From NCBI GenBank assembly GCA_937893835.1, contig CALCSS010000131.1, forward strand, positions 1 through 38,893: a stretch of 38,893 nt of DNA. The letters are read 5' to 3'. Under the pieces are notes generated by a model. That model ran no database searches. It worked only from the letters and a program-made list of their open reading frames with translations, and was not told the origin of the DNA. Positions 2,285 to 26,224 of the stretch are shown here, piece after piece; the first letter of the stretch is position 1, and each line of letters begins with the position of its first letter. A program made the position numbers and the translations under genes. The stretch comes from an uncultured Fidelibacterota bacterium. Its GTDB lineage: Bacteria; Fidelibacterota; Marinisomatia; Marinisomatales; UBA1611.

Positions 2285-2404
2285 TTTAACCTCAGCATCT
2301 TCTTTGTCTGACAGAGATCTATCGCTATCAGGAATGAATTAACAATGAATGGTAGCAGTGTCTTTCTGCCGATCATTTTATCATCAACATTTTCTTTGTC
2401 TGAC
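2281..2404 (-). repeat. Direct repeat of sorting-tail coding sequence, 92 bp apart
   Basis: tcattttaacctcagcatcttctttgtctgac (2281-2312) vs tcattttatcatcaacattttctttgtctgac (2373-2404): 28/32 identical, encoding QTKKMLRLK* and QTKKMLMIK*. Confidence 0.85.
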
Positions 2405-4202
2405 GAAAACCTCGCGCCCTCAGCTCTGAAAAATAGACCCCTGAGGATACTGGCCTGCCTAACTGATCCAGTCCGTTCCACGTAACCGTGTGAAATCCAT
2501 ATTCCATGTTCTCTGAAACCAGGGTCCTGATCTGTTGTCCCATGAGGTTATAGATGACAATGGAAACGTCTCCGGTTCTTGGTAATGCAAAGTCCATCTT
2601 GGTGACCGGGTTAAAGGGATTGGGGTAGTTCTGACCGAGAGAGTATTGCTCTGGTATGTCTGCAAGGAGATCATCGATCATCTGCAAGAGGTAACTCTCG
2701 TCTCCTGCTATGAGGATGATGTCATGGACATGATCGATCCTGCCCTCGATCGTTAGGTCTTGCTGAGAGAAGTTGCTGATGACCTCTCTGTTTGGGACAT
2801 CAATGATCGCGAATCTCAGGTCTGTTGGTGTCCCACTCATTGAGGAAGCGGTCAGCCTTATTGGACCCGGGTCATCATTGCCTTGGATCTGCATGTTCCA
2901 GACGCCATTGAATTCATCGGTAGATCGAATGTCTGAGCTGTGGGCGTAGGTACCGCTGGATCCAATGTCCATCAACAACCTAAGCGAATTACCTGGCGAG
3001 GGTAGTAGAGAAACGTCGTAGGGGTCAATATTCTCATCTGCACCATTCATCCTTCCAATGGTACCGGTCCTATCAAAATATTCAGCACCTATCACATCGA
3101 TCTCCATCCTCCATCCATCTTGGACGGATCTGGCCACGATGCTGGAATCAGAGAACGGCTTGAACGTGATGGTCCCATTGTCTGTTGGACTTTCTACGGC
3201 GTATCCTGCCCAAGGCTCGAAGACAGTGGTGTCTGCCCATCCTTCCTTATTTCCTGACCCATATCTGTGGGGCCGGGACACACCTTCGCTGTACTCAGCC
3301 TGAACCGGAAAGGAGAAGGGACTTCCTACCATGTTACAGCCCTTATCAAGCTGAATGGTATAGTCTTCCAGAGGAACGGCATATCCTGTACTGTCCTTGT
3401 TCTTGAATAGGACCGGATCTTTGTATCGATGCTTGAACCAGTAGCCTTTACCAGTTTTAAGAGTGTCTGGTTTTATCCATGTGTTGTTATTTGGGTCCCA
3501 GTCATAGAAAACATGTCCATCCTCAAGTTCAGATCGTTCTACTTGATTCATATTGAGTTCACCAGGGAAGGAGAACATTCTCCATGATTCAGAACGGATG
3601 CCGTCAGGATAATAACTAAACGTGTCTTGCATGGTCAACTCTTCCACATCAAATCCCATGTATGGAGAATTAAATGCGGTCGTGGAGATATTCTCCATCC
3701 CATCTTCGCTTACGAAATGGGCGCGAAAATTGAGGACGGTCCTGAGGCTGTCTGAGATGGAGACACGATAGGTCGAGTCATCCAAGGCCTCCATGGGTAG
3801 GATGATCACATCCTGACTCCCACCAAACTGTACATGCAACTCTGTTCCCTTGATCCCATTGATGTCTGTCACCACGGCCTGGGCATACACATCCTTTGCG
3901 CGTCTTTCAACAGTGTCTGGGAATGATGCCTGGATCGTGGGAGGTGAGGAATAAAGACCCGATGCTATGTTCCAGAGGCCGCCTTTGAGTGTCAGGGTAT
4001 CACCGTTCCCGGTATGAACAAAATTCTTACCAAGAGATCCCTTTAGGACCAATGAGTCAGAGGTCATGGGGCTCTGGCTGAGAGAGACCTGCTGGGTGAT
4101 CACCTTGTAATCCTGCGCTGTGAGTATACAGAGGATGATCGGTACCGTGATAAGCGTTCTCACCCTATTGAAATAGCTTATTTCGTTGCCTTTCAAGCGC
4201 AT
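2373..4202 (-). CDS. Secreted protein with T9SS type-A-like C-terminal sorting domain
   Basis: 609-aa ORF; C-terminus SLGQNYPNPFNPVTKMDFALPRTGDVSIVIYNLMGQQIRTLVSENMEYGFHTVTWNGLDQLGRPVSSGVYFSELRARGFRQTKKMLMIK is a classic PNPFNP / GVY / KKMLMIK sorting tail; hydrophobic N-terminus. Confidence 0.88.
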   Translation of the reverse strand: MRLKGNEISYFNRVRTLITVPIILCILTAQDYKVITQQVSLSQSPMTSDSLVLKGSLGKNFVHTGNGDTLTLKGGLWNIASGLYSSPPTIQASFPDTVERRAKDVYAQAVVTDINGIKGTELHVQFGGSQDVIILPMEALDDSTYRVSISDSLRTVLNFRAHFVSEDGMENISTTAFNSPYMGFDVEELTMQDTFSYYPDGIRSESWRMFSFPGELNMNQVERSELEDGHVFYDWDPNNNTWIKPDTLKTGKGYWFKHRYKDPVLFKNKDSTGYAVPLEDYTIQLDKGCNMVGSPFSFPVQAEYSEGVSRPHRYGSGNKEGWADTTVFEPWAGYAVESPTDNGTITFKPFSDSSIVARSVQDGWRMEIDVIGAEYFDRTGTIGRMNGADENIDPYDVSLLPSPGNSLRLLMDIGSSGTYAHSSDIRSTDEFNGVWNMQIQGNDDPGPIRLTASSMSGTPTDLRFAIIDVPNREVISNFSQQDLTIEGRIDHVHDIILIAGDESYLLQMIDDLLADIPEQYSLGQNYPNPFNPVTKMDFALPRTGDVSIVIYNLMGQQIRTLVSENMEYGFHTVTWNGLDQLGRPVSSGVYFSELRARGFRQTKKMLMIK

Positions 4203-12841: not shown

Positions 12842-15187
12842 CTAGAAATTTGCCCTGTAATTAAGACCAAACCAGAATTTTGAGTCCGGCATCCAGTTCC
12901 CCTTGAGATCACTATTCTTTGATAGGTTTGATAGGGACAGACCAATGTCATCGGTGATATTCAGATTTAATTTGGTGATCATGTTGAGTCCAGAGATGAA
13001 TTGCAGTGAGAGCTCATAGAACGGCACCTTTGATACCTGAATAAAGTCCATGAACGATAGCCTCTCAATGAACTTTGGTTTTTCACCGATCTTGCCTGTC
13101 ACATCAAATCGGATATAGAAGGAACTCAGTCTCGTGAATGAGTCTCCCTCACCGTTCAGATCCTCTTGACTCCATGACACGGTATCACCAGGAGTAAGAA
13201 CCTGGTTGTAGAAAGTCCTTTCGTAGAGCTCTTGGTTATTGTCTATGGCCACTTGCCTGGTATCCTTCAAACGGTGTGCGATCTTTAGATAGTGAAACCC
13301 GGGAGCTGCTGTTATCCGACCAACAGATGGAAGTTTAACTGGCACCTCAACCGTCGTTGCGGCGAGGGCATAGCTATCCAATATATTGATGTTCTCTGTC
13401 TCATCCTTGACCGTGTTCCAATAGGCGGTGTCCGTTGTCGACACATTGGAGATATCAGAGGGTGAAAACAGTTTATCTCCAGAGCTTGGAGGATAAAAGG
13501 TAAATCCTATCAGTCCATGGAGACTGGTCCGTGTCCCAAAGAGATTGTCAATGTTGCCCCTGGCATACAGACCCAGGTAGTCGGAGCTTGCCACGTCAAC
13601 ACCATCATAGTTTCCGCTTCCTAAATCAAATGCAACTGGAAGACGCACTCCAAACTCTGATCGCTGAGTTGCAATACCCAATTCACTCGACCCGGCCAAT
13701 AGACCAGGCAGACCTATCAATGAATTTCCCACCCGCATGTTTGCCGCATACTGGATGAGATTGGAACGAATTGAAAAAGAGAAGAGGGACGACATCTTGA
13801 AATTGTTTGCGTGCCAGACGGAGAATATCGATCCGTATCCAGCCATAAGCCTCTCGCTCTCGCTCTTGTGAAATACGGTCTCAGACTCACTGGTGAGGTA
13901 CTCGTCCTTTGCGATCAATACCTTTTGAATGTCTTGGCTAAAGACCCAGTCAACTTTCTCACGATCAATGATGGAAAAATCCAATCCATTCCCATACCAT
14001 ATCTCATGTATCTCATCTGAGTTGCCCTTTTCCTGTACAATGATGATCTGATCGGTGGGGGACATCTCACGTATTGAGGTATCCTCACCATCCTCTATGG
14101 CATCACCATCGCCTGCGTTGATGTATTTCAGTGCCATATAGTTTTGTATGGCATCTTCCATGATTATGTGGTAGGGTTGATGGTCAACCGCCCACGCTAC
14201 GTACTTTCTCTTGTCCAGCGCAATGACCTCTGTCTCTTCAGCGTCCTTCACTTTTACATTGACGCTCCCGGAGACATGTAGCTTGTCATCCTTGCTGTCA
14301 ATGGCCTTGTAGGATATCTGGTAGACATTGTCCTTGTTCCTGTCCACGGGACCTTCGTAGTCGGGATCTCTCAAAAATGCAAGGTCTCCCGCACGTGTGA
14401 TCTTGAAATGTTCTTTGTCATCGCTCTTCGTTAGTTTGAATTTCACACTGGACTGGTTCTCATCGGGATCCTCAACCTTCAGCCTCCCTACGATCTTTCC
14501 AAGATTCTCAGAGTGACTGAAACTGGTCTCCTTTGCACTGACCAACACGGGAGCCTCATTCTGATCTTTGACCGTGACAGTGACATTTTCCACGATCTTC
14601 TCATCGCCAGAGTCCGAGACCTGCACAGCGATCGTGAAGGATCTCTCCTCCTCAAAGTCAAAGGGACGCTTGGTCAGCAGATTAGATCCATCAAGGCTGA
14701 AATCATCTCTATTGTCCTTTGCGAGACCAAACTTGAACTTGTCATCCGGGTCGGGATCTTCGACCTTCAATCTTCCTATCACTGTTCCCGCAGCGGCATT
14801 CTCCTTTACCTGGCTTTCACTCAGGGAGAGACCGGTGGGAGCGTCATTGACGGGGTTGATGTTTACCCGTACCTGAGCGGTTCCGGTCTCGAGGCCGTTG
14901 TCGACCTTATAGTCAAACTTATCAACACCAGAGACATCTGGCTCCGGTGTGTATAGGATCTTCTCACCTTGAACCTGGACCTTGCCCTTCTCTGGCTCAG
15001 TAACGATCTCTATGGCGACATTGCTCTTATCCTTGAGATCATCATTCTTAAGGACATTGATCTTGACAGACCCGTCCTCCTGAACCTGAGCATTGTCAGC
15101 CTTTATCTTGAGGCCTGCCTGTGAAAAGGCCACGCTCAAAATGATCATGGATGAAAAAAGAACTTTTAATTTGGTTAATATGTTCAT
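12842..15187 (-). CDS. Cadherin/Ig-like repeat protein with probable outer-membrane beta-barrel C-terminal region
   Basis: 781 aa; signal peptide; KINVLKNDDL...GVDKFDYKVDNG...VNINPVNDAP, two cadherin-like units (VKENAAAGTVIGRLKVEDPDPDDKF, SHSENLGKIVGRLKVEDPDENQSS); C-terminus MPDSKFWFGLNYRANF ends in Phe like a BAM signal. Confidence 0.8.
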   Translation of the reverse strand: MNILTKLKVLFSSMIILSVAFSQAGLKIKADNAQVQEDGSVKINVLKNDDLKDKSNVAIEIVTEPEKGKVQVQGEKILYTPEPDVSGVDKFDYKVDNGLETGTAQVRVNINPVNDAPTGLSLSESQVKENAAAGTVIGRLKVEDPDPDDKFKFGLAKDNRDDFSLDGSNLLTKRPFDFEEERSFTIAVQVSDSGDEKIVENVTVTVKDQNEAPVLVSAKETSFSHSENLGKIVGRLKVEDPDENQSSVKFKLTKSDDKEHFKITRAGDLAFLRDPDYEGPVDRNKDNVYQISYKAIDSKDDKLHVSGSVNVKVKDAEETEVIALDKRKYVAWAVDHQPYHIIMEDAIQNYMALKYINAGDGDAIEDGEDTSIREMSPTDQIIIVQEKGNSDEIHEIWYGNGLDFSIIDREKVDWVFSQDIQKVLIAKDEYLTSESETVFHKSESERLMAGYGSIFSVWHANNFKMSSLFSFSIRSNLIQYAANMRVGNSLIGLPGLLAGSSELGIATQRSEFGVRLPVAFDLGSGNYDGVDVASSDYLGLYARGNIDNLFGTRTSLHGLIGFTFYPPSSGDKLFSPSDISNVSTTDTAYWNTVKDETENINILDSYALAATTVEVPVKLPSVGRITAAPGFHYLKIAHRLKDTRQVAIDNNQELYERTFYNQVLTPGDTVSWSQEDLNGEGDSFTRLSSFYIRFDVTGKIGEKPKFIERLSFMDFIQVSKVPFYELSLQFISGLNMITKLNLNITDDIGLSLSNLSKNSDLKGNWMPDSKFWFGLNYRANF

Positions 15188-15199
15188 GATTGACCTGTT

Positions 15200-16939
15200 C
15201 TAAAAATTGACTGATATGTATGGTGAGATCAACAATGACCCACCTTTTTTATCGTTCTCATCGGGCCCCGTACCGGGATACCACTTCCAACTGCTTTTTG
15301 GATCATCTCTATCATCCTGGAACTCGATGAAAGAGTTATTGGGATAGAGCGTGCAGTCCATCCCGAGGTTGACCATCCTGTAGACATTATGCTCAAGCCC
15401 AAAGCTAAAGGCCTTGAATCCACTCGCTGATACATTGATCTGAAGATACCCCTTTGACCTCTTGTCATCTGTGACACCCTCTACCTTTGCATAGACCCCG
15501 ATCGCATCTGATCCTGTGACCCGATCGGTGACAGAGACCTGATCATCTAGATTCACATTGCCATGTAAGAACTGTGTAAAGGCCAGCCCCGCTTTCAGGC
15601 GCATGGAGCCATAAGGCTGCGAGACCCTTAGCTCTCTGCCTTTACCACTTCTTGCCCTCACAATACCCGTCGCAGCCCTGACCATCTGCTGGTCCTCAGG
15701 CGAGAGGGACTCAAGGGAGACCGCCATGGTCGTTTCACCGTCCCACTTCAATCTTGCGACGAATGCCCTGTCCTCCTCACTCAGATCCTTGATCTTGAGC
15801 ACCATGGTAAAATTATCCTTTTCACGATTGAGTGTGACCTTCTTCTTGTCACTCTTTTTTAAAGAGGCCTTGACCGTACTGCCCGAGGTGGTGGTCCACT
15901 CTCTTCCCTTCTCGGCCTGCTTGTGGGCCTTTTCATCTTTCTCGACCTGGATCGTTACAACATTACTCTCATCAAGGCCAAGAAAGAGACCATTATATTC
16001 GGCGTCATCCACAGCCCAGGTCCTACTTTTGGCGATCAACTTCTCTGCCTTGGCCTTCTGTTTCTTCTGATCCTTGATCTTTGTTCCGTAATTCGAATCA
16101 ACTTTTCTATTGATCTGAAATGTATTGCTCCAATATAATATGCCGCTGCTGGACGGAAGGACCAGATGCTTGCGGCTGAACATATCTGCCGCGGTATACT
16201 CTTGTCCATCCACATCCATATAATTGACCTGGCCGCCTAGCTTGTGAGTGTCAAACTTGAAACCAAATCCATAGTTTCCCTCCAGAGGATGACCAATTCC
16301 CTTTGAGACCGTCATTGTATTGCCTGGTACGATCAGATAGGAGCTGACTATGTCATTCGACAGCCCCAGCATCAGATTCTCTGAAAGTTGCCTGGAAAGA
16401 CCCAGGTCCGTGAATCCTTGCTCAAGCCTGAACGCCAGGCTCCCACTCTTTTGACGAATGAAGAATTTCATGGCCGTGCTCGCACTGACCTGTGAGTTTG
16501 ACCACCAAAAGGCATCTCTGGCATCCTTGAAGCTCCGCTCCTTGAACACATTGTCAACGGTACTGAATTGCTCAAGCTCTGATAGATCTCTCCGGCTCAC
16601 ATCCTTCCACTTGTACTCTCTGGACATGATGGTACTCAACTGAACTGGGTTCATCTTCTCGACCTCAGGCATGTCGAAGGAGATGTACTGACCCATTTGA
16701 TAGTCTTTTGCCTTTAGCTTCTTCAGTTCGATCTTCTCATCCTCAATGTCCATCTGGACAATGATGGAGAAAGAGGCCTGGATGCTATTCTCCTCGAATT
16801 TATCAACCTCGATCAACCTGTTTATGTAAGCCTCAATGAACTCACTATTTACGATGGGGTCTGCGACCTCCCAGAAAAGGGATTCTTGCCCATGGACCGA
16901 GACCATGAGCAGTGACCCGAGGATAACTTTTTTGATCAT
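15200..16939 (-). CDS. Probable outer-membrane/envelope protein with SHD1-like domain(s) and barrel-type C-terminus (GldM-downstream position)
   Basis: ORF track start at 16996 overlaps the upstream gene; the in-frame ATG at 16939 gives MIKKVILGSLLMVSVHGQ, a clean signal peptide just past the upstream stop. GREWTTTSGSTVKASLKKSDKKKVTLNREKDNFTMVLKIKDLSEEDRAFV matches the SHD1 pattern; C-terminus GGSLLISPYISVNF. Confidence 0.75.
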   Translation of the reverse strand: MIKKVILGSLLMVSVHGQESLFWEVADPIVNSEFIEAYINRLIEVDKFEENSIQASFSIIVQMDIEDEKIELKKLKAKDYQMGQYISFDMPEVEKMNPVQLSTIMSREYKWKDVSRRDLSELEQFSTVDNVFKERSFKDARDAFWWSNSQVSASTAMKFFIRQKSGSLAFRLEQGFTDLGLSRQLSENLMLGLSNDIVSSYLIVPGNTMTVSKGIGHPLEGNYGFGFKFDTHKLGGQVNYMDVDGQEYTAADMFSRKHLVLPSSSGILYWSNTFQINRKVDSNYGTKIKDQKKQKAKAEKLIAKSRTWAVDDAEYNGLFLGLDESNVVTIQVEKDEKAHKQAEKGREWTTTSGSTVKASLKKSDKKKVTLNREKDNFTMVLKIKDLSEEDRAFVARLKWDGETTMAVSLESLSPEDQQMVRAATGIVRARSGKGRELRVSQPYGSMRLKAGLAFTQFLHGNVNLDDQVSVTDRVTGSDAIGVYAKVEGVTDDKRSKGYLQINVSASGFKAFSFGLEHNVYRMVNLGMDCTLYPNNSFIEFQDDRDDPKSSWKWYPGTGPDENDKKGGSLLISPYISVNF

Positions 16940-16940
16940 T

Positions 16941-18380
16941 TTAATCATAATATTCGAACTCATTATCTGAAACGGTTTCTTTTTTGTATTTATCAACGAC
17001 CTTGATCCTTATCTCGGTCGTCTCACCAAACTGTGGCTCATCCATCTCAAAGCTATACTTGGCCACCCTCCGGTTCCCAATTCTCTTCTCTGGCTGTTCC
17101 TCATCAAGCTTACCGTATATGCCAGACAGAGGGACCACTGCCTTCTTGCCATTCTTATTACCATAGGTCGTCACGGTCAGCAGCATGTTGTTCGTCCCCT
17201 TGCCCATTCTCTTGAACTCCATCTTGGGTGGAGGGACCTTCCTCACCTTCACCTCATGGTTGAGACCCTTGACCGAGTTGCCATCCACAAAGGTCTCGAA
17301 CATCACCTTCCCTCTGCTCTTTGGTTTCAGCTTGGCCTGGTAGGAGTTGTAGGTCTTCGTATTCACCGCAGACCCAGATATCTTGACAGAGATCCTGTCC
17401 CTGTCCACATCCTTGACCCTGCTGTCAAACACGTAGTCCTCTCCTATGAAGATCTCCTTGTCCTCTGATGGTGAACTATACTGCGGATCGACAACGACGA
17501 TCTTGGCAGACGTGATGCTTGAACTTTTATCTCTTTTCCTTAGACCGACCACCTCGACCATCCCGCTGCTTGTGCCCTTACCGGTTATGAACGCACGGGG
17601 CAGACCTGAGACAAGATCCTTGACAAGATCCTTCCCGCTTGCTAGCTCCATGCTGAAATCAGCATCGGAGTTGACCCCACCTACACTGAAGGGGATCTCC
17701 CAGTCAAGTCCTCTGAGCACCGTGTATTTTTCCTTGTCGAACAAGACAAAGAACTCAGACTGTTGTCCGTCCATGTATATCAGGGTCACAGGGGTATCAA
17801 ACTGACGCTTGATGGAGAAACTACCCTCACGCGAGACCTCACTATCGATGATCTTCAATAACTTATCTGTGATCTTATAGTCCCCGAATGCGACGGACCA
17901 TTTGCCGTAGGTGACCGTATCAATGTCCGGGATGAACCTGATCCCCAGGTCGACGTTATAGGGTTGATTTAAATAATTCTCATCGACAGAGCTTAGATCA
18001 ACTCTCGCAACATAACGATTCTCGTCACCCTCATCCTCATAGGGCTCGACCACTACGGAGTCCAGCTCCCAATCATAATCATCATCGACACTTACCTCCT
18101 CGCCCTCGACCTCTATGATGGAGGTAGTGAAACTTGGTGTGAACTCGATCTTCCCTCTCTCATACTGGCCCTCTACATCAAAGAATAGCCTGTAATGATC
18201 TGGGTCCTCGTAATTTGATTCGACATTGTTGATCTCAACAAGGGTCTGGAGTTTATCCTGGGCAACATTCTTCAAGATATCATCCTGCCTGCGCATGTAG
18301 ACCGCCAACTCACCCTCAATGGCAAATAGACTCAGGATCGCTCCTAGATTTATCAAGAAGTAAACTTCTACTTTTTTCAT
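16941..18380 (-). CDS. GldM-like single-TM periplasmic Ig-domain protein (putative motor stator/shaft partner)
   Basis: 479 aa; one N-terminal TM (VEVYFLINLGAILSLFAI), then beta-rich periplasmic domains. YTVLRGLDWEIPFSVGGVNSDADFSMELASG and VKGLNHEVKVRKVPPPK resemble GldM D2-D4 motifs (VLYxGVDNPIxIxxPGV; FxVxxxPxP). Immediately downstream of a GldL-like gene. Confidence 0.62.
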   Translation of the reverse strand: MKKVEVYFLINLGAILSLFAIEGELAVYMRRQDDILKNVAQDKLQTLVEINNVESNYEDPDHYRLFFDVEGQYERGKIEFTPSFTTSIIEVEGEEVSVDDDYDWELDSVVVEPYEDEGDENRYVARVDLSSVDENYLNQPYNVDLGIRFIPDIDTVTYGKWSVAFGDYKITDKLLKIIDSEVSREGSFSIKRQFDTPVTLIYMDGQQSEFFVLFDKEKYTVLRGLDWEIPFSVGGVNSDADFSMELASGKDLVKDLVSGLPRAFITGKGTSSGMVEVVGLRKRDKSSSITSAKIVVVDPQYSSPSEDKEIFIGEDYVFDSRVKDVDRDRISVKISGSAVNTKTYNSYQAKLKPKSRGKVMFETFVDGNSVKGLNHEVKVRKVPPPKMEFKRMGKGTNNMLLTVTTYGNKNGKKAVVPLSGIYGKLDEEQPEKRIGNRRVAKYSFEMDEPQFGETTEIRIKVVDKYKKETVSDNEFEYYD

Positions 18381-18389
18381 GATCTGAAC

Positions 18390-18791
18390 CTATTTATTTA
18401 TGGCTTTTGAAAGGATCTCGTTCACTTCTTTTTTGATCTCTTCTCGCACTTTACCTTTTGCAAGATTAGATAATCCCTCACCCATTTGAGCCACCTTGAC
18501 CACTGCCTTTGTCAACTCTGAGAGTTCCTTGCCATTCATGTCAGCGACCCCACCTGAGGGAGCGCTATCTCCTCCACCACTATCAGGCCCAAGATTGTAG
18601 ATGCTTTGAGCGTACAGCAGCAAGAGACAGAATTCAAGTATGATGGCGCCAATGGACAAGTAGGTCATCACCCCAACATGATCAGGGTCCAGGGTCGCGA
18701 TTATGGATCTAAATCCAACTATCATGAGCAAGAAAGCAGCACCTCCATATACCATGGCCGTTCTTGCATTCATATCAGATCTGAGTTTCAT
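18390..18791 (-). CDS. GldL-like two-TM inner-membrane protein
   Basis: 133 aa: TM1 AMVYGGAAFLLMIVGFRSIIA and TM2 VMTYLSIGAIILEFCLLLLYAQSIY with Glu53 inside TM2, then a cytoplasmic-type helical tail. Compare GldL YGxGAxxVIxGALF / LTIGLxTEAFIF. Adjacent to the GldM-like gene. Confidence 0.62.
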   Translation of the reverse strand: MKLRSDMNARTAMVYGGAAFLLMIVGFRSIIATLDPDHVGVMTYLSIGAIILEFCLLLLYAQSIYNLGPDSGGGDSAPSGGVADMNGKELSELTKAVVKVAQMGEGLSNLAKGKVREEIKKEVNEILSKAINK

Positions 18792-18816: not shown

Positions 18817-20172
18817 TTATTCTATTGTAAGCGTTCGTATTGCGGTGGAGGTGTAGCATCCATCACTAATATTGAACGGGATATCATAGCTACCGACATG
18901 ACTCGAGGTTGGTATTGCTGTGATGTTCCCAGAGTTGTCCCATGAGAACCAAGACCAATTCTCGGTCACGTTAAAGTTGATCACATCATTGTTGGGGTCT
19001 TGCCACTCCACGTCAAATTGAAGCGTGTCTCCTGGGGCCATGGTCTCAGGAAAGTTCCCAAGATTGTTGAACTCAGGAGCGTCGTTGGCCAAAAGCTCTA
19101 GGTCAAAGGAGTGCTCTGTTGTCAATGGCCTGCTGGGCCTGTCATCCTCCAGGGTCACGGAGATGGATGTCACTCCCGCATCTCCATTCTCAGGGGCCCT
19201 GACACAAAAGAGCTTACCATTGTCATCGTTGTCAAAGCTCAACCACTCGGCAGACTCTGTTCCCTCGTGCGTGAATGTGACAACCTCAGTACGATTGAAG
19301 TGAGGTTTAGAATTATTTGGGTCACTCCAATTGAGATCGATGATGTCGTCATTGTCATCGTAACAGCCGACCCTTATAGAGCTTGGTATCGAGTTCGTGT
19401 TCGAGAACACTGGGGCCAAATTTTCCCGGACCTCTATGTTGATCTCCTCCTGGACATCGATCTCATCATCGGTGATGGTCAATAAGAATTCATGATTTCC
19501 AACGTCATTGCTCTCTGGTGGGGCTGAAGAACCTATGTTCCCTTCAGAGTCAATGGAGAGCCATCCAGGTAAATTAGAGTCAGAGAGTGATGGATTATCG
19601 CCTTCATCCGTGTCAGTCCATTCTATCCTTGGACTATCATAGTCAACGTACTCGTCTGCATATCTTGGTATTTGATCGAGATTGGTGAAGTACGGGGTCT
19701 CATTCACATTGATCACCTTGATCTTAACGGTAAAGTCACCGTCAAGGTCTGCAGGGCTATCATCGCTCACAAGGATGACCACATCAACCTGCTTTGATCC
19801 GGTAAGTGCCTCAAAATTGATACTGCCATAGGATAGTTCAAGATTTGTGACCCCGGAATTGGAGTTGAGGACAAAATAATTTACTGCCGTACCGTCCATC
19901 TTCTGACTACTGATCGAGTAGGTAAACTCATCATCAGGATTAGGGTCTGTCGCATTCAGGGTGCCAATGGTCAGTCCCGGGGCCGAGTTCTCCTTTAACT
20001 GGCCTTCTTCTTCATCCCCTTCGGGTTTATGCTCGTCAGCCCATTCGATACCACCTCTGGGCGGTTGTGGGTCTAGGTCCTGGTTGTTTCCTGGGTATGT
20101 CAGATCAACCGTCTCACAGCCACTGGAAATCATTATCAGGGATATCAATGTTATTGATAGATGCTTCTTCAT
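18817..20172 (-). CDS. Lipoprotein with tandem cadherin/Ig-like (He_PIG-type) domains
   Basis: 451 aa; MKKHLSITLISLIMISSGC lipobox; EGQLKENSAPGLTIGTLNATDPNPDDEFTYSI cadherin-like; repeated YxxxxWxDxxxxxxPxxSxxxLPxWLSIDSEGNIxxxxP modules. Confidence 0.83.
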   Translation of the reverse strand: MKKHLSITLISLIMISSGCETVDLTYPGNNQDLDPQPPRGGIEWADEHKPEGDEEEGQLKENSAPGLTIGTLNATDPNPDDEFTYSISSQKMDGTAVNYFVLNSNSGVTNLELSYGSINFEALTGSKQVDVVILVSDDSPADLDGDFTVKIKVINVNETPYFTNLDQIPRYADEYVDYDSPRIEWTDTDEGDNPSLSDSNLPGWLSIDSEGNIGSSAPPESNDVGNHEFLLTITDDEIDVQEEINIEVRENLAPVFSNTNSIPSSIRVGCYDDNDDIIDLNWSDPNNSKPHFNRTEVVTFTHEGTESAEWLSFDNDDNGKLFCVRAPENGDAGVTSISVTLEDDRPSRPLTTEHSFDLELLANDAPEFNNLGNFPETMAPGDTLQFDVEWQDPNNDVINFNVTENWSWFSWDNSGNITAIPTSSHVGSYDIPFNISDGCYTSTAIRTLTIE

Positions 20173-20260: not shown

Positions 20261-22048
20261 TTACGGTACTTGTGCACCATTGTACGCAAGGATGAAACTA
20301 TCAAGGCTAACCTCTGTGTCCAAGTTTAATTTTTTTCTCAATCTATAGCGCTTATTTTCCACCGCTCGGACGGAGAGGCCCGTGACCCTCGCGATCTCCT
20401 TTGTGTTCATACTCATCTTCAAGTAGCAACACAGCTTGATGTCCGCGGTACGCAGGCCCGTGTAATGTACGCTCAAACTTTCAACAAATTCGGGATATGC
20501 CAATGAGAATTGCATTTGAAACTGGTCCCAGTCGGCCGAGTCGTCTATCTTGTTCTGTATCCTCTTTCTCAGAGGGTCCAACACCTTGCGATCTGCCTTG
20601 CTATCGATCAATGACATATGATATTCCAGATCCTTGTCTATGGAACTGAGGAGATCATTCTTTGAGACGATGTATGCCGACATCTTTACGAGCTCATCCT
20701 CCTTGCTTCTCAATTCATTTTCTGCTATCTGCCTCTCTTGCTTGTGGAGCAGTCTTTCTTGTGCCCTTGCTCTTTTTTTATTTCTATGGTTGATCACCGC
20801 CATGCCCAATAATACCATCGCAAACCCACCGAAAATGAAGAAGATCGATTCCCTTGACCTTGCCTCCTCCAATGCTCTTCGATTGACATCAAGTTGGAAC
20901 TTATAGTTGAGACTCTCCAATAGCATATCCATCCGATCGGAAGATAGGGATGCCTTTTTTTCAAGTAAGATATCGGCAGTCCCTAGAGCACTTCTATCCA
21001 ATTTATTTATTCTCAATATCTCTATCTTTTTCTCTAATAGGTCTATCTCTAGGACCGAGAGACCATTTAACTCACATATTTCCAGGGCCTTGTCTATCGA
21101 CCCAAGGGCACTGTAGAGGCTGTCCTGCTGTATTTGGATCTCGGACCTTCCAAGATAATGCTTCGCCAGTTGCAGTGGAAGTCTATGCAAGAGCCTCAAA
21201 GCAGATCTTGATTCAGAGTATGCACCATCAAAATTCTTTTGATCGGCATATACCCTCATCCTGAGTGAATGATCATACCCCAAATAACTATTTTTTTTAT
21301 TGACAATGGCCTGACTCACACCATCGCTTGTAGATGAGGGGACATGACTCAACAGAGAGTCCGAGGCCTGGAGTTGTTCCAATGACATTTCATCAAGGCC
21401 CCACTCTGCGTATAGCCCTGCCAGTCTCCCGTGCTGATAGACAACTGACAGTGCCGCACCAGGGAAGGTCGCGCTGGACCCTGTCAGAGACCGCTGAAAG
21501 ACCTTGTACCTAGCAGTACCTCGCCTAACATTCAATGCCTCCTTGTAGTAGACCAGAGCATTGTCATAGTCTTTTAGACCAAACTCCACACTACCAAGGC
21601 AGTTCAATGCGACTGCCTTTCCACTCACGTTATTCGATATTTTTTGGTCTCTCCTACTGAAGATATCCAAGGCGTGAAAATATTTTTCCTTGGCCTCCAA
21701 CCACTTTTTTTGGTGTCTGTAGACATTACCAATAGAGATATCATTCCAAGGATTGATATTTGCGTGGCTTTTTTGCTTTGCATCTAATAGACTCGTCAGG
21801 GAAAGAGAAGGCAGGCCAAGTTCGAGATATATCTCACCTAGAATATGCAGTACCCTTGATTCCAGGTCTCTATCTTCTAGGTCAAGTCCCTCCAATATCT
21901 CACGGGCGTACCTGATCGCCCTATCAGGTGCCTTGGGCCTCAAGGACCTCAAGGAATCCAGCTCGGGATATTTAATAGGACCGTCCTGTGCGACCAGCAT
22001 ATTACCTACCAGTGACAGGCAGAATAATGCTAAGGCTAATTTTTTCAA
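20261..22048 (-). CDS. TPR - transmembrane - coiled coil - LuxR-type HTH regulator
   Basis: 595 aa starting at TTG (MKKLALALFCLSLVGNMLVAQ, AAGG 8 nt upstream). TPR-like repeats, one TM (IFFIFGGFAMVLLGMAVI), C-terminal GLRTADIKLCCYLKMSMNTKEIARVTGLSVRAVENKRYRLRKKLNL. Confidence 0.85.
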   Translation of the reverse strand: MKKLALALFCLSLVGNMLVAQDGPIKYPELDSLRSLRPKAPDRAIRYAREILEGLDLEDRDLESRVLHILGEIYLELGLPSLSLTSLLDAKQKSHANINPWNDISIGNVYRHQKKWLEAKEKYFHALDIFSRRDQKISNNVSGKAVALNCLGSVEFGLKDYDNALVYYKEALNVRRGTARYKVFQRSLTGSSATFPGAALSVVYQHGRLAGLYAEWGLDEMSLEQLQASDSLLSHVPSSTSDGVSQAIVNKKNSYLGYDHSLRMRVYADQKNFDGAYSESRSALRLLHRLPLQLAKHYLGRSEIQIQQDSLYSALGSIDKALEICELNGLSVLEIDLLEKKIEILRINKLDRSALGTADILLEKKASLSSDRMDMLLESLNYKFQLDVNRRALEEARSRESIFFIFGGFAMVLLGMAVINHRNKKRARAQERLLHKQERQIAENELRSKEDELVKMSAYIVSKNDLLSSIDKDLEYHMSLIDSKADRKVLDPLRKRIQNKIDDSADWDQFQMQFSLAYPEFVESLSVHYTGLRTADIKLCCYLKMSMNTKEIARVTGLSVRAVENKRYRLRKKLNLDTEVSLDSFILAYNGAQVP

Positions 22049-22882: not shown

Positions 22883-25800
22883 TCATTTCATCAAGATCAT
22901 TTTTTGACTAAAGATCCTACTACCTGCACTCAACTTGTATATATAGACACCTGCACCCACATTATTTCCGGAATTGTCATTCCCATGCCACTCGATCAAA
23001 TAATGTCCTGCCTCTTGGGTCTGTCCTACGAGATTCCTGATCATCCTACCTCTCATGTCATAGATATTGAGTGATACATCGGACTGGAAGGCAAGGTCGT
23101 AGGATATGATCGTGGATGGATTGAAGGGATTGGGATAATTTGGATGCAAGGCAAAGCTCACTGGTAGGCCATCACCCAGATCGACCCCGACCATTTCGCC
23201 ACTAAATTGACCAAAGTTATCCGCAACTATTGTCAATGGATTGGCATTGACATCACCAGCAGATATCGAGGTGATCATAAAGACAACAGATGGATTTGTT
23301 AGTGTATTGCTGAATTCTACCTCGACCTCTAGTATGGGACCTGTGTCTGGCTCGATCGCTGTGACAAAATCATATCCAAGAAAATAGAATGAACCGGACT
23401 CGGTCTCTCCAGAGATCCCGTCAATGGTCCCGTCTTCAAATCTGCCCAGTGGGGTAATGTTCGTGACCGTCATGAGGTCTGGCATATCGGTGATCTCAAA
23501 TTCTAGGATGTTCAGGGTCTCGATATTATCAATATGTATCTCGAAGGTTCCACTGCCTCCGGGAGTCATCTGGCCTGACACATTCTCGATCGTACAGCCT
23601 ACAGGTGGCTGACCTATATAAAATGAATGGGGATTGCCGACCGTGACCATTGGCAGGTTGTTGACATCTGCCAGGACCGCCTCGCTAATGGTTATGTCAA
23701 TGATCGTACCATCAGGTATTCCCGTAAGCACATCATATTCAATATCGACCAGATGGCCAACACCAGGCTCTATGGGATTTGACTGGGAGTTGTCATACGC
23801 CGTCACTCTGTAGCCTATGCCTAGATCTGCTCCCGATACGGACCAATTCTCCAGGTCGAGCAATGGGTTGAATGATAGATCGACCCCATTGATGAATGGT
23901 GGATCGGCAAGGATATCAAATTGCATCGCATAGACCGGTTGGGTATTCTCCAAGAATACAGAGCCAGTGGTTTGTGAATCGCTATTTCCATAGCCACCAT
24001 AAAGGCTCAGATACTGTGTCTCGATACCAACATCATATGTACCACTCTCTGCCGTCCAATTAAGGTCGACATAACCCACATCCTGAATAGAGGTACCAGA
24101 GGTGTAAGAGAGATTGACCGTGACCTCCTGCTCTGCTGTGGGATAGAGGACAGCTCGACAAACGGGGCCGTCTCCCGCTCCCAAGACCGTACCTACGCTG
24201 ATACCAGTAATTGCAATGGTCCCGTCTCCTTGATCCGCTATCTCTAGGGCCCAATCAGACGTTCTTTCTGTGGTAATGATATTCAAACTATTGATGATAT
24301 CAGGGTAATCCATGATCTCAAAGTAGAACAATCCTAGATCGGACTCGTTGTTTATGTAAAAGTCCAGGGTATCCATCTGCCCCGATAATGATGCGCCATC
24401 GTCAAACCATAGTTCGACCCACTCAACTGGGGTCGCAGAGATCGTCTCCGTTGGGCCAGACTCCGTACCGTCTGGGTATATTGCTGTAACATAGTAGTAG
24501 TAGGTCGTACTGTTCACAACATCCTCATCGAGATATGTGGTCACGTCACTGCCTACCTCAGCGATCTCCTCAAAGTCCGATGTGCCACTGAGTGATCGAT
24601 AGACCTTGAAAGCATCCAACTCCACTGGTCGTATCTCATTATTGATCGGATTATCCAGGTCAACCTTTAATTCGTGTGGGATTCCTCCGGGGAATTGTTC
24701 GATGACCTCTTCCTTTGGCGCGGACAGTGCCCACTCTCCAAGTTCAGTCAGTTCATAGTGTACATTCCGGCCAACCTCTCTAGCAGCAAATGTAATGAAG
24801 ACATCATCAACAGCCCATCCAGAGCCCCAGAATCCATTGTCATTCGAATGAAATGCAATATACAGGTTTGATACGCCTGCATGCTCTGAAAGGTCTACTG
24901 TCTCGGTCACCCATTCGGAGACAGGGTCCAAGGCATATACCTCGGTGAAGTTCGTACCGTCAGTGCTTACTGCTATATGTGCCGTTTGGCTATATGCACC
25001 ATCAAAGTAAGAGGCAAAGTTCAGTGTTATGTTCTCAGCGCCACTCACATTCAAGGGTGGTGTCACCATATAGTCCATGGAACCATCATCGTTTGCCATG
25101 TCATCATTTGAGCACATGTACCAGGTATGGGATGGGATGGCCCAGAACCCACTGGAACCATCTTGAGTGATAAACCAACCTTGTGCAGAGTTTGTGGTAA
25201 GGTCCCAATCATCGGGAACCGTTCCTTCTTCAAAGTCTTCTGAAAAATCCTCTGGTATCGGTCCAAATGGAGGATCCCAGCTCAACAAGACCTGAGCGTC
25301 CATGCCATCCTGCACCTGTAGATTATGTGGCTCCTCAATATAGCCAGGGCTTACAGTTACAGTACCTGAGTCTGCGCTTTCAACCCAATAGGTACCTCCA
25401 ATCCCATCTGTGACGGTGACATTTGAGAAATTGACACCTACATTTGAATTATATGCGTTCTCATGGATCATCATCTCCATGGTCGCAATTGAGCCTGAAC
25501 CAGTTTCAATATTTTGATTATCACCACTATACATGATCACCCTTGTGTCACCATTGTCCAGTTCATTAAAGTCAATGGTGAAGCCGGTCGAGCGATCTGT
25601 TGTTGTAAATCCGGTCACATCAAGATAGTTTGGCGTATCGTAGATATCAAACTGCAGGCCACCCACTTCGCCTGAATTCTGAAGATCAATATCCAGATAG
25701 ACCTGCTCTGAAACATCCCCCGTGTCTGTTGATGCACTTAGAATGATCACATCCCCTATCGTTATGGAGCCATTGACCACATCACCATCGACCAGGTTGC

Positions 25801-26224
25801 CATCGCCATCGCTTACTGAAAGGTCGAACACCTCTAATTCTACCACTGCAGACAATATGTCAGACCCGTCATAATGCAAGTTCAAAACAACTTCATCTCC
25901 GCCAGCGGCGATCTCACCTCCCAAACCATTATAAAAGACCACTCTCCCCGAGCCATCATCAAAGACAGTGTAATCTGCACTAAAATTATCCTGATCCACA
26001 GGAACTGCACCTGATAGAGTAATGATCGTAGGTAGAGCAATAAGATCAAATTGAAGACCCCCAACTGCATTGTCTGGATTTGTCAACGTTACTGGTACCA
26101 CAATATCCTCAGTATATCCACTTACCTGGACCTCTCCTATGGAAACGGTCACATTAGAGAATGCTGCACTACTGGCAGTTAAGATCATGATCAAAAGAGA
26201 AAGATTTCTTCTCATAAATGTCAT
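22883..26224 (-). CDS. Secreted cohesin-like / FnIII / choice-of-anchor-J-like protein with T9SS type-A-like sorting tail
   Basis: 1113 aa; repeated cohesin-like units (VVPVTLTNPDNAVGGLQFDL; VYLDIDLQNSGEVGGLQFDI; QTTGSVFLENTQPVYAMQFDI); EDFEEGTVPDDW...GWAVDDVFI jelly roll; tail NYPNPFNPSTIISYDL...GVYIYKLSAGSRIFSQKMILMK. Start has GGAGG six nt upstream. Confidence 0.9.
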   Translation of the reverse strand: MTFMRRNLSLLIMILTASSAAFSNVTVSIGEVQVSGYTEDIVVPVTLTNPDNAVGGLQFDLIALPTIITLSGAVPVDQDNFSADYTVFDDGSGRVVFYNGLGGEIAAGGDEVVLNLHYDGSDILSAVVELEVFDLSVSDGDGNLVDGDVVNGSITIGDVIILSASTDTGDVSEQVYLDIDLQNSGEVGGLQFDIYDTPNYLDVTGFTTTDRSTGFTIDFNELDNGDTRVIMYSGDNQNIETGSGSIATMEMMIHENAYNSNVGVNFSNVTVTDGIGGTYWVESADSGTVTVSPGYIEEPHNLQVQDGMDAQVLLSWDPPFGPIPEDFSEDFEEGTVPDDWDLTTNSAQGWFITQDGSSGFWAIPSHTWYMCSNDDMANDDGSMDYMVTPPLNVSGAENITLNFASYFDGAYSQTAHIAVSTDGTNFTEVYALDPVSEWVTETVDLSEHAGVSNLYIAFHSNDNGFWGSGWAVDDVFITFAAREVGRNVHYELTELGEWALSAPKEEVIEQFPGGIPHELKVDLDNPINNEIRPVELDAFKVYRSLSGTSDFEEIAEVGSDVTTYLDEDVVNSTTYYYYVTAIYPDGTESGPTETISATPVEWVELWFDDGASLSGQMDTLDFYINNESDLGLFYFEIMDYPDIINSLNIITTERTSDWALEIADQGDGTIAITGISVGTVLGAGDGPVCRAVLYPTAEQEVTVNLSYTSGTSIQDVGYVDLNWTAESGTYDVGIETQYLSLYGGYGNSDSQTTGSVFLENTQPVYAMQFDILADPPFINGVDLSFNPLLDLENWSVSGADLGIGYRVTAYDNSQSNPIEPGVGHLVDIEYDVLTGIPDGTIIDITISEAVLADVNNLPMVTVGNPHSFYIGQPPVGCTIENVSGQMTPGGSGTFEIHIDNIETLNILEFEITDMPDLMTVTNITPLGRFEDGTIDGISGETESGSFYFLGYDFVTAIEPDTGPILEVEVEFSNTLTNPSVVFMITSISAGDVNANPLTIVADNFGQFSGEMVGVDLGDGLPVSFALHPNYPNPFNPSTIISYDLAFQSDVSLNIYDMRGRMIRNLVGQTQEAGHYLIEWHGNDNSGNNVGAGVYIYKLSAGSRIFSQKMILMK

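Follow-up and report, generated by a model that had tools for sequence, protein, structure and literature searches.

Can a small domain sit inside another copy of its own kind? The question is raised by one gene in the window, the 38,893-nt stretch of DNA analysed here, which belongs to a Ca. Neomarinimicrobiota (Marinimicrobia) assembly. A first-pass annotation had proposed that a complete SHD1 domain is nested between the two halves of another SHD1 domain; to our knowledge no such SHD1-in-SHD1 arrangement has been described, and a literature search with partial coverage of the literature found none. The three segments quoted in that annotation, in the order given there, are the exact translation of 15674-16027 on the minus strand (SRTWAVDD...DQQMVRA), a stretch of 118 residues corresponding to aa 324-441 of a 598-aa open reading frame (15200-16996, minus strand) that begins with TTG at 16996. 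Alignment with relatives suggests that the true start is the ATG at 16948, which would yield a protein of 582 aa (Table 1).

Table 1. Coordinates of the nested module, its host gene and the neighbouring genes (positions in the window).
Feature	Position	Strand	Basis
Barrel-like protein CDS carrying the nest	15200..16948	-	ORF and relatives; 582 aa from ATG 16948
Whole insert, about 150 aa	15629..16090	-	Missing from short orthologues/paralogue; short-form profile matches end at ~aa 285 and restart at ~aa 441
Charged leading helix KDQKKxKxKAEK	16031..16072	-	AlphaFold2 helix 2-15 of insert model; K/Q positions invariant
Outer SHD1-like first half, strands 1-3 (SRTW...VTIQVEK)	15938..16027	-	AlphaFold2 strands 18-22, 25-34, 39-44; hhalign to inner unit
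Linker helix, invariant H-K-x-A-x-K-G, from outer strand 3 to inner strand 1	15908..15934	-	AlphaFold2 helix 48-56; invariant columns
Inner complete SHD1 domain (GREW...AFVARL)	15749..15907	-	Pfam in relatives, Foldseek 2HBP, profile vs 2HBP
Outer SHD1-like second half, strand 4, 3-10 turn and helix (WDGETTMAVSLESLSPEDQQMVRAA)	15668..15745	-	AlphaFold2 strand 116-120, helix 126-136; hhalign
Basic low-confidence tail, returning to the next barrel strand	15608..15667	-	pLDDT < 50, insert residues 140-158
Lipoprotein with Ig/cadherin-like repeats	18817..20172	-	Lipobox ISSGC; Pfam He_PIG/Cadherin
GldL-like, pair of hydrophobic helices with invariant Glu53 in helix 2	18390..18791	-	Alignment
GldM-like, one N-terminal TM helix and long beta-rich extracytoplasmic part	16941..18380	-	Layout, operon position
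Second barrel-like protein, N-terminal cadherin/Ig domains	12842..15187	-	Pfam; presence/absence across loci

The inner unit is a genuine SHD1. Among the families matched by the insert family, Pfam SHD1 (PF03983) is the commonest, with hits in seven of the 13 members and a best E-value of 3e-6, and the inner unit taken alone matches it in 8 of 12 members; the window protein itself scores 16.8 bits (E 0.006), the cut-off being 23.7 bits. A profile of the inner unit gives a full-length alignment with the Sla1 SHD1 chain (2HBP) at 17.5 bits. In a Foldseek comparison of the AlphaFold2 model of the insert with the PDB, yeast Sla1 SHD1 (2HBP) ranked first, that is, the family to which the sequence had already pointed, with an rmsd of 1.7 Å over 55 columns, a probability of 1.00, a TM-score of 0.70 on the target, 27% identity and a modest E-value of 6.6e-3. 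As modelled, the inner unit adopts the Sla1 SHD1 fold, and the 55-column match shows the predicted domain closing on itself. It is important to point out that a PF03983 search of 245 genomes of the phylum returned nothing above the cut-off; the model is so strict that it misses even these proteins, and an outside SHD1 alignment could therefore not be built. Antibody chains found in a single-sequence PDB search of the insert were treated as chance matches, and a search of a viral structure library gave nothing useful. Two phage proteins in the PDB, 36za_6 (gp32) and 11fg_B (gp146), match the inner SHD1 profile at 24 bits, above Sla1, and this profile similarity makes it possible that these structural proteins represent SHD1-like domains in phage particles.

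The outer unit has to be assembled from two segments. Once joined, the outer halves align with the inner unit collinearly and end to end over 51 columns in hhalign (probability 86.7), with a score reached by none of 300 column permutations; in swapped order they match through half 2 only. Most of the joined score is supplied by half 2, which on its own scores 25.8 against the inner unit. The score of half 1 alone is reached by 9 of 300 permutations (p~0.03), and the gain obtained by adding half 1 to half 2 by 5 of 300 permutations of half 1. Judged by these profile comparisons, the similarity of half 2 to the inner unit is secure and that of half 1 suggestive. A W, a G and an LSxxD-type motif are conserved in the outer flanks. 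When the outer halves are joined, Pfam SHD1 recognises them in 2 of the 13 members, at E 0.094 at best, and gives no match in the other 11, the window member included. Because the Pfam score falls short but the predicted strand/helix order (AlphaFold2, DSSP) and the similarity (hhalign) are those of SHD1, the outer domain is called SHD1-like here. A contrast in charge between the outer and inner units, acidic and basic in the window, was considered and rejected, as it fails across the relatives, where only the inner basic charge holds.

The AlphaFold2 model of the insert was built from 13-15 sequences and has a pTM of 0.55 and an overall pLDDT of 79.5, with values of about 80-90 over most of the two domains and about 75-90 in both flanks. 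Its elements follow the order E-E-E / H / [E-E-E-E-H] / E-H, in which the outer first part (E18-22, E25-34, E39-44, then H48-56) precedes the inner domain (E58-62, E67-75, E79-84, E90-94, H100-108) and the outer last part (E116-120, H126-136) follows it; an AlphaFold2 run on the whole protein returned the same order. Strand lengths are 5/10/6/5 in the outer and 5/9/6/5 in the inner domain, the second halves of both share the DSSP string EEEEE-HHH-E-x-H, and the outer domain is broken only at the beta3-beta4 hairpin, which spans 71 residues as opposed to 5 in the inner one. Since the inner unit closes alone and the strand assigned by DSSP needs a partner, outer strand 4 would most simply pair with the outer first half.

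Nesting of a complete SHD1 within an SHD1-like domain is probable on this evidence, because the joined halves align end to end (0/300 permutations) and repeat the inner strand/helix string in two AlphaFold2 runs. The structural comparison suggested in the first-pass annotation did not refute its proposal, the element order being of the insertion type and Sla1 SHD1 heading the Foldseek ranking. Its further claim that the outer halves complete one another stands for half 2 and in the structure model; half 1 is weak in sequence (5-9 of 300 permutations), and its place in the predicted outer domain rests mainly on the model. One may ask whether the inner unit is the sole SHD1, its flanks being mere linkers, on the N-terminal side an arm rich in strands and on the other a degenerate repeat of the second half, which form no joint domain. 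The blindness of Pfam to the joined halves in 11 of 13 members and the weak permutation result for half 1 alone are what such a layout would predict, but the confident modelling of both flanks in SHD1 strand order with the same DSSP string, the conserved W, G and LSxxD-type motif and the end-to-end alignment of the joined pair with the inner unit make it unlikely. A crossed, strand-swapped double domain, in which half 1 would pack with the inner second half and half 2 with the first half of the inner unit, fits the a-a-b-b order in the sequence and has precedents in the intertwined SH3-fold pairs of the ARID4A/B and JMJD2 Tudors (PMC8038949); it is very unlikely here, since the close match of the model to 2HBP (55 columns, 1.7 Å, 27% identity) indicates a self-closing inner unit.

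The host protein has relatives in about 16 genomes at 44-87% identity. Foldseek matches of its low-confidence whole-protein AlphaFold2 model are outer-membrane barrels, and the protein is likely to be one of these; a firm barrel assignment from this model was dropped, the model being too poor (pLDDT about 25-60). PF11751 (PorP/SprF) matches neither the barrel protein nor its short forms. The nest would occupy a periplasmic loop, on the side of the barrel C-terminus, because six strands separate the insert from the C-terminal Phe in the low-confidence whole-protein model; the membrane side is a parity argument only, owing to the poor barrel model. The annotation's picture of an exported protein beside a motor pair is broadly correct, with a probable outer-membrane barrel as the host.

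The gene is part of a cluster in the order lipoprotein, GldL-like, GldM-like, nest-bearing barrel and second barrel with cadherin/Ig domains. In T9SS operons, the slot held here by the lipoprotein is that of PorK/GldK. The GldL-like and GldM-like proteins are 67-93% identical between genera, and the GldL-like protein has the two TM helices and the TM2 glutamate of GldL, Glu53 lying in the second of two hydrophobic stretches read by eye; in GldL, the proton-path glutamate is Glu49 (E49) (PMC8986121). In the genome, the GldL model TIGR03513 finds nothing at E <= 10, and the GldM model TIGR03517 is likewise without a match. The genome encodes SprA (TIGR04189, 727 bits), with its neighbours in the frame, and 31 NYPNPFNP T9SS-type motifs, the reversed control giving 0; it contains both a SprA/Sov translocon and CTD substrates, the marks of a T9SS. 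Glu53, SprA, the NYPNPFNP motifs and the T9SS sorting domains in two window proteins make a divergent T9SS/gliding motor module the best reading of the cluster, one that draws on gene layout and context and not on family matches, and the motor-like pair may be the T9SS motor that Marinimicrobia seem to lack. The two window proteins are large T9SS substrates ending in Por_Secre_tail/NYPNPFNP and lie on either side of the cluster, at 2373-4202 and 22883-26224. Directly upstream, at 20261-22048, lies a gene for a TPR protein that has a membrane helix and, at its C-terminus, an HTH resembling sigma-70 region 4; this protein is a possible regulator of the cluster.

A family-profile search over the 245 genomes of the phylum provides an overview of the distribution of the insert. 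Long forms with the nest occur in family f1 (many genera) and family f9; short forms of 428-456 aa occur in f8, f28 and f30, in a single distant genome of f1, and in genome G023, where the short form is a second copy. The insert is missing from the short forms as one block. Relatives with the outer domain only, anticipated in the annotation, did not appear: the relatives in these genomes carry the whole nest or nothing, and there are no inner-only forms among them. For long and short forms alike, the GldM-like gene precedes the barrel and the second barrel follows it. At nest loci, cadherin/Ig repeats totalling about 290 aa precede the conserved part of the second barrel; at short-form loci, a signal peptide leads directly into the conserved part and there are no cadherins. 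Nest and neighbour cadherins co-occur in all loci seen (the window, L018 and L052-L066), and G023 carries both versions, a long cluster with the nest (L018, G023:C99) and a short one (G023:C8) that lacks both nest and cadherins. When the insert columns are left out, the barrel tree requires two or more changes, and in it the short f8 forms group with the nested form of G032 (98/100). The tree suggests one gain followed by loss of the nest as the simplest reading, which long branches make uncertain. The nested double SHD1 module is rare.

What might such a module do? In the proposed mechanism, a divergent SHD1-like domain has taken up a complete SHD1 at its beta3-beta4 (distal) hairpin. The nested pair would occupy a single loop of a protein that is probably an outer-membrane beta-barrel and whose gene lies in a GldL/GldM-like motor operon. 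Facing the periplasm, the nest may act as a rigid two-site peptide-docking module, tying the barrel to a periplasmic partner (motor arm, lipoprotein or cell wall), with the GldM-like arm and the lipoprotein as the likeliest candidates, within a divergent T9SS/gliding-type machine. Bacterial SHD1 has been described as a domain of SH3 fold that occurs in extracellular proteins and belongs to a radiation of such domains linked to peptide binding (PMC5906684). We infer the barrel topology, the periplasmic side, the docking role and the partner. The explanation as a whole, that is, nest, barrel loop and docking in a T9SS/gliding-type machine, stands at about an even chance, and the periplasmic docking role as stated here is tentative.

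Alternatively, the nest could be real but face outwards and bind a surface ligand or adhesin, having been gained together with the neighbour cadherins as a surface-adhesion upgrade. This reading is in keeping with the joint occurrence of nest and cadherins in all loci seen, and PorP-like barrels hold T9SS surface proteins (PMC9143113); it is nevertheless doubtful, as the parity of the C-terminal strands, albeit in a poor barrel model, favours the periplasm and the short forms have only a short loop at this place. A third idea, that the nest recognises the NPF core within T9SS sorting domains (NYPNPFNP), is attractive because Sla1 SHD1 has NPFxD as its ligand, and if true, a eukaryotic reader of an endocytic motif and a bacterial reader of a secretion signal would share both domain and motif. 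This idea is scarcely credible, since NYPNPFNP motifs are common whether or not a genome has the nest, their numbers in genomes lacking it being equal or higher, and the bacterial motif lacks the Asp of NPFxD. Docking on the periplasmic side remains the preferred, if tentative, reading.

If confirmed, the nest would show clearly that a small domain of a bacterial protein can sit inside another of its kind, and would illustrate a simple route to a rigid two-site module, by which a domain is copied into its own hairpin or each half is doubled. The divergent motor/outer-membrane cluster of Marinimicrobia may then replace the known T9SS motor genes, and barrels with and without the insert, both forms in one genome included, would offer a natural comparison.

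Several known systems resemble parts of this arrangement. Yeast Sla1 SHD1 (2HBP, PF03983) shares with the inner unit its modelled fold (1.7 Å over 55 columns, 27% identity) and the RxW...G...A...VxL...LSxxD layout, but here the domain belongs to a bacterial envelope protein and is nested in a second copy. As with PorP/SprF and PorL-PorM of the T9SS, a probable outer-membrane barrel here neighbours a two-gene inner-membrane motor, and SprA is encoded in the genome, although the PorP_SprF, GldL and GldM models have no match here. Bacterial secreted SH3-fold/SHD1 proteins are also exported and thought to bind peptides; in contrast to the nest, those described in the accessible parts of the source are tandem or side-by-side fusions, none of them nested (PMC5906684). 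An architectural parallel is provided by the interdigitated double Tudors of ARID4A/B and JMJD2, in which the first and last strands form an outer SH3-fold barrel and the middle strands a second one (PMC8038949), an arrangement also predicted here. The Tudor pairs divide 2+2 strands, are tightly joined, have the Tudor fold and belong to chromatin proteins, whereas the Marinimicrobia nest combines an SHD1 with an SHD1-like domain, is modelled as divided into three strands and one strand with a helix, has a helix linker, is interrupted at a different hairpin and resides in the bacterial envelope. Nested SH3-fold pairs are thus already known from the interdigitated Tudors, and the SHD1 nest is a new form of them.
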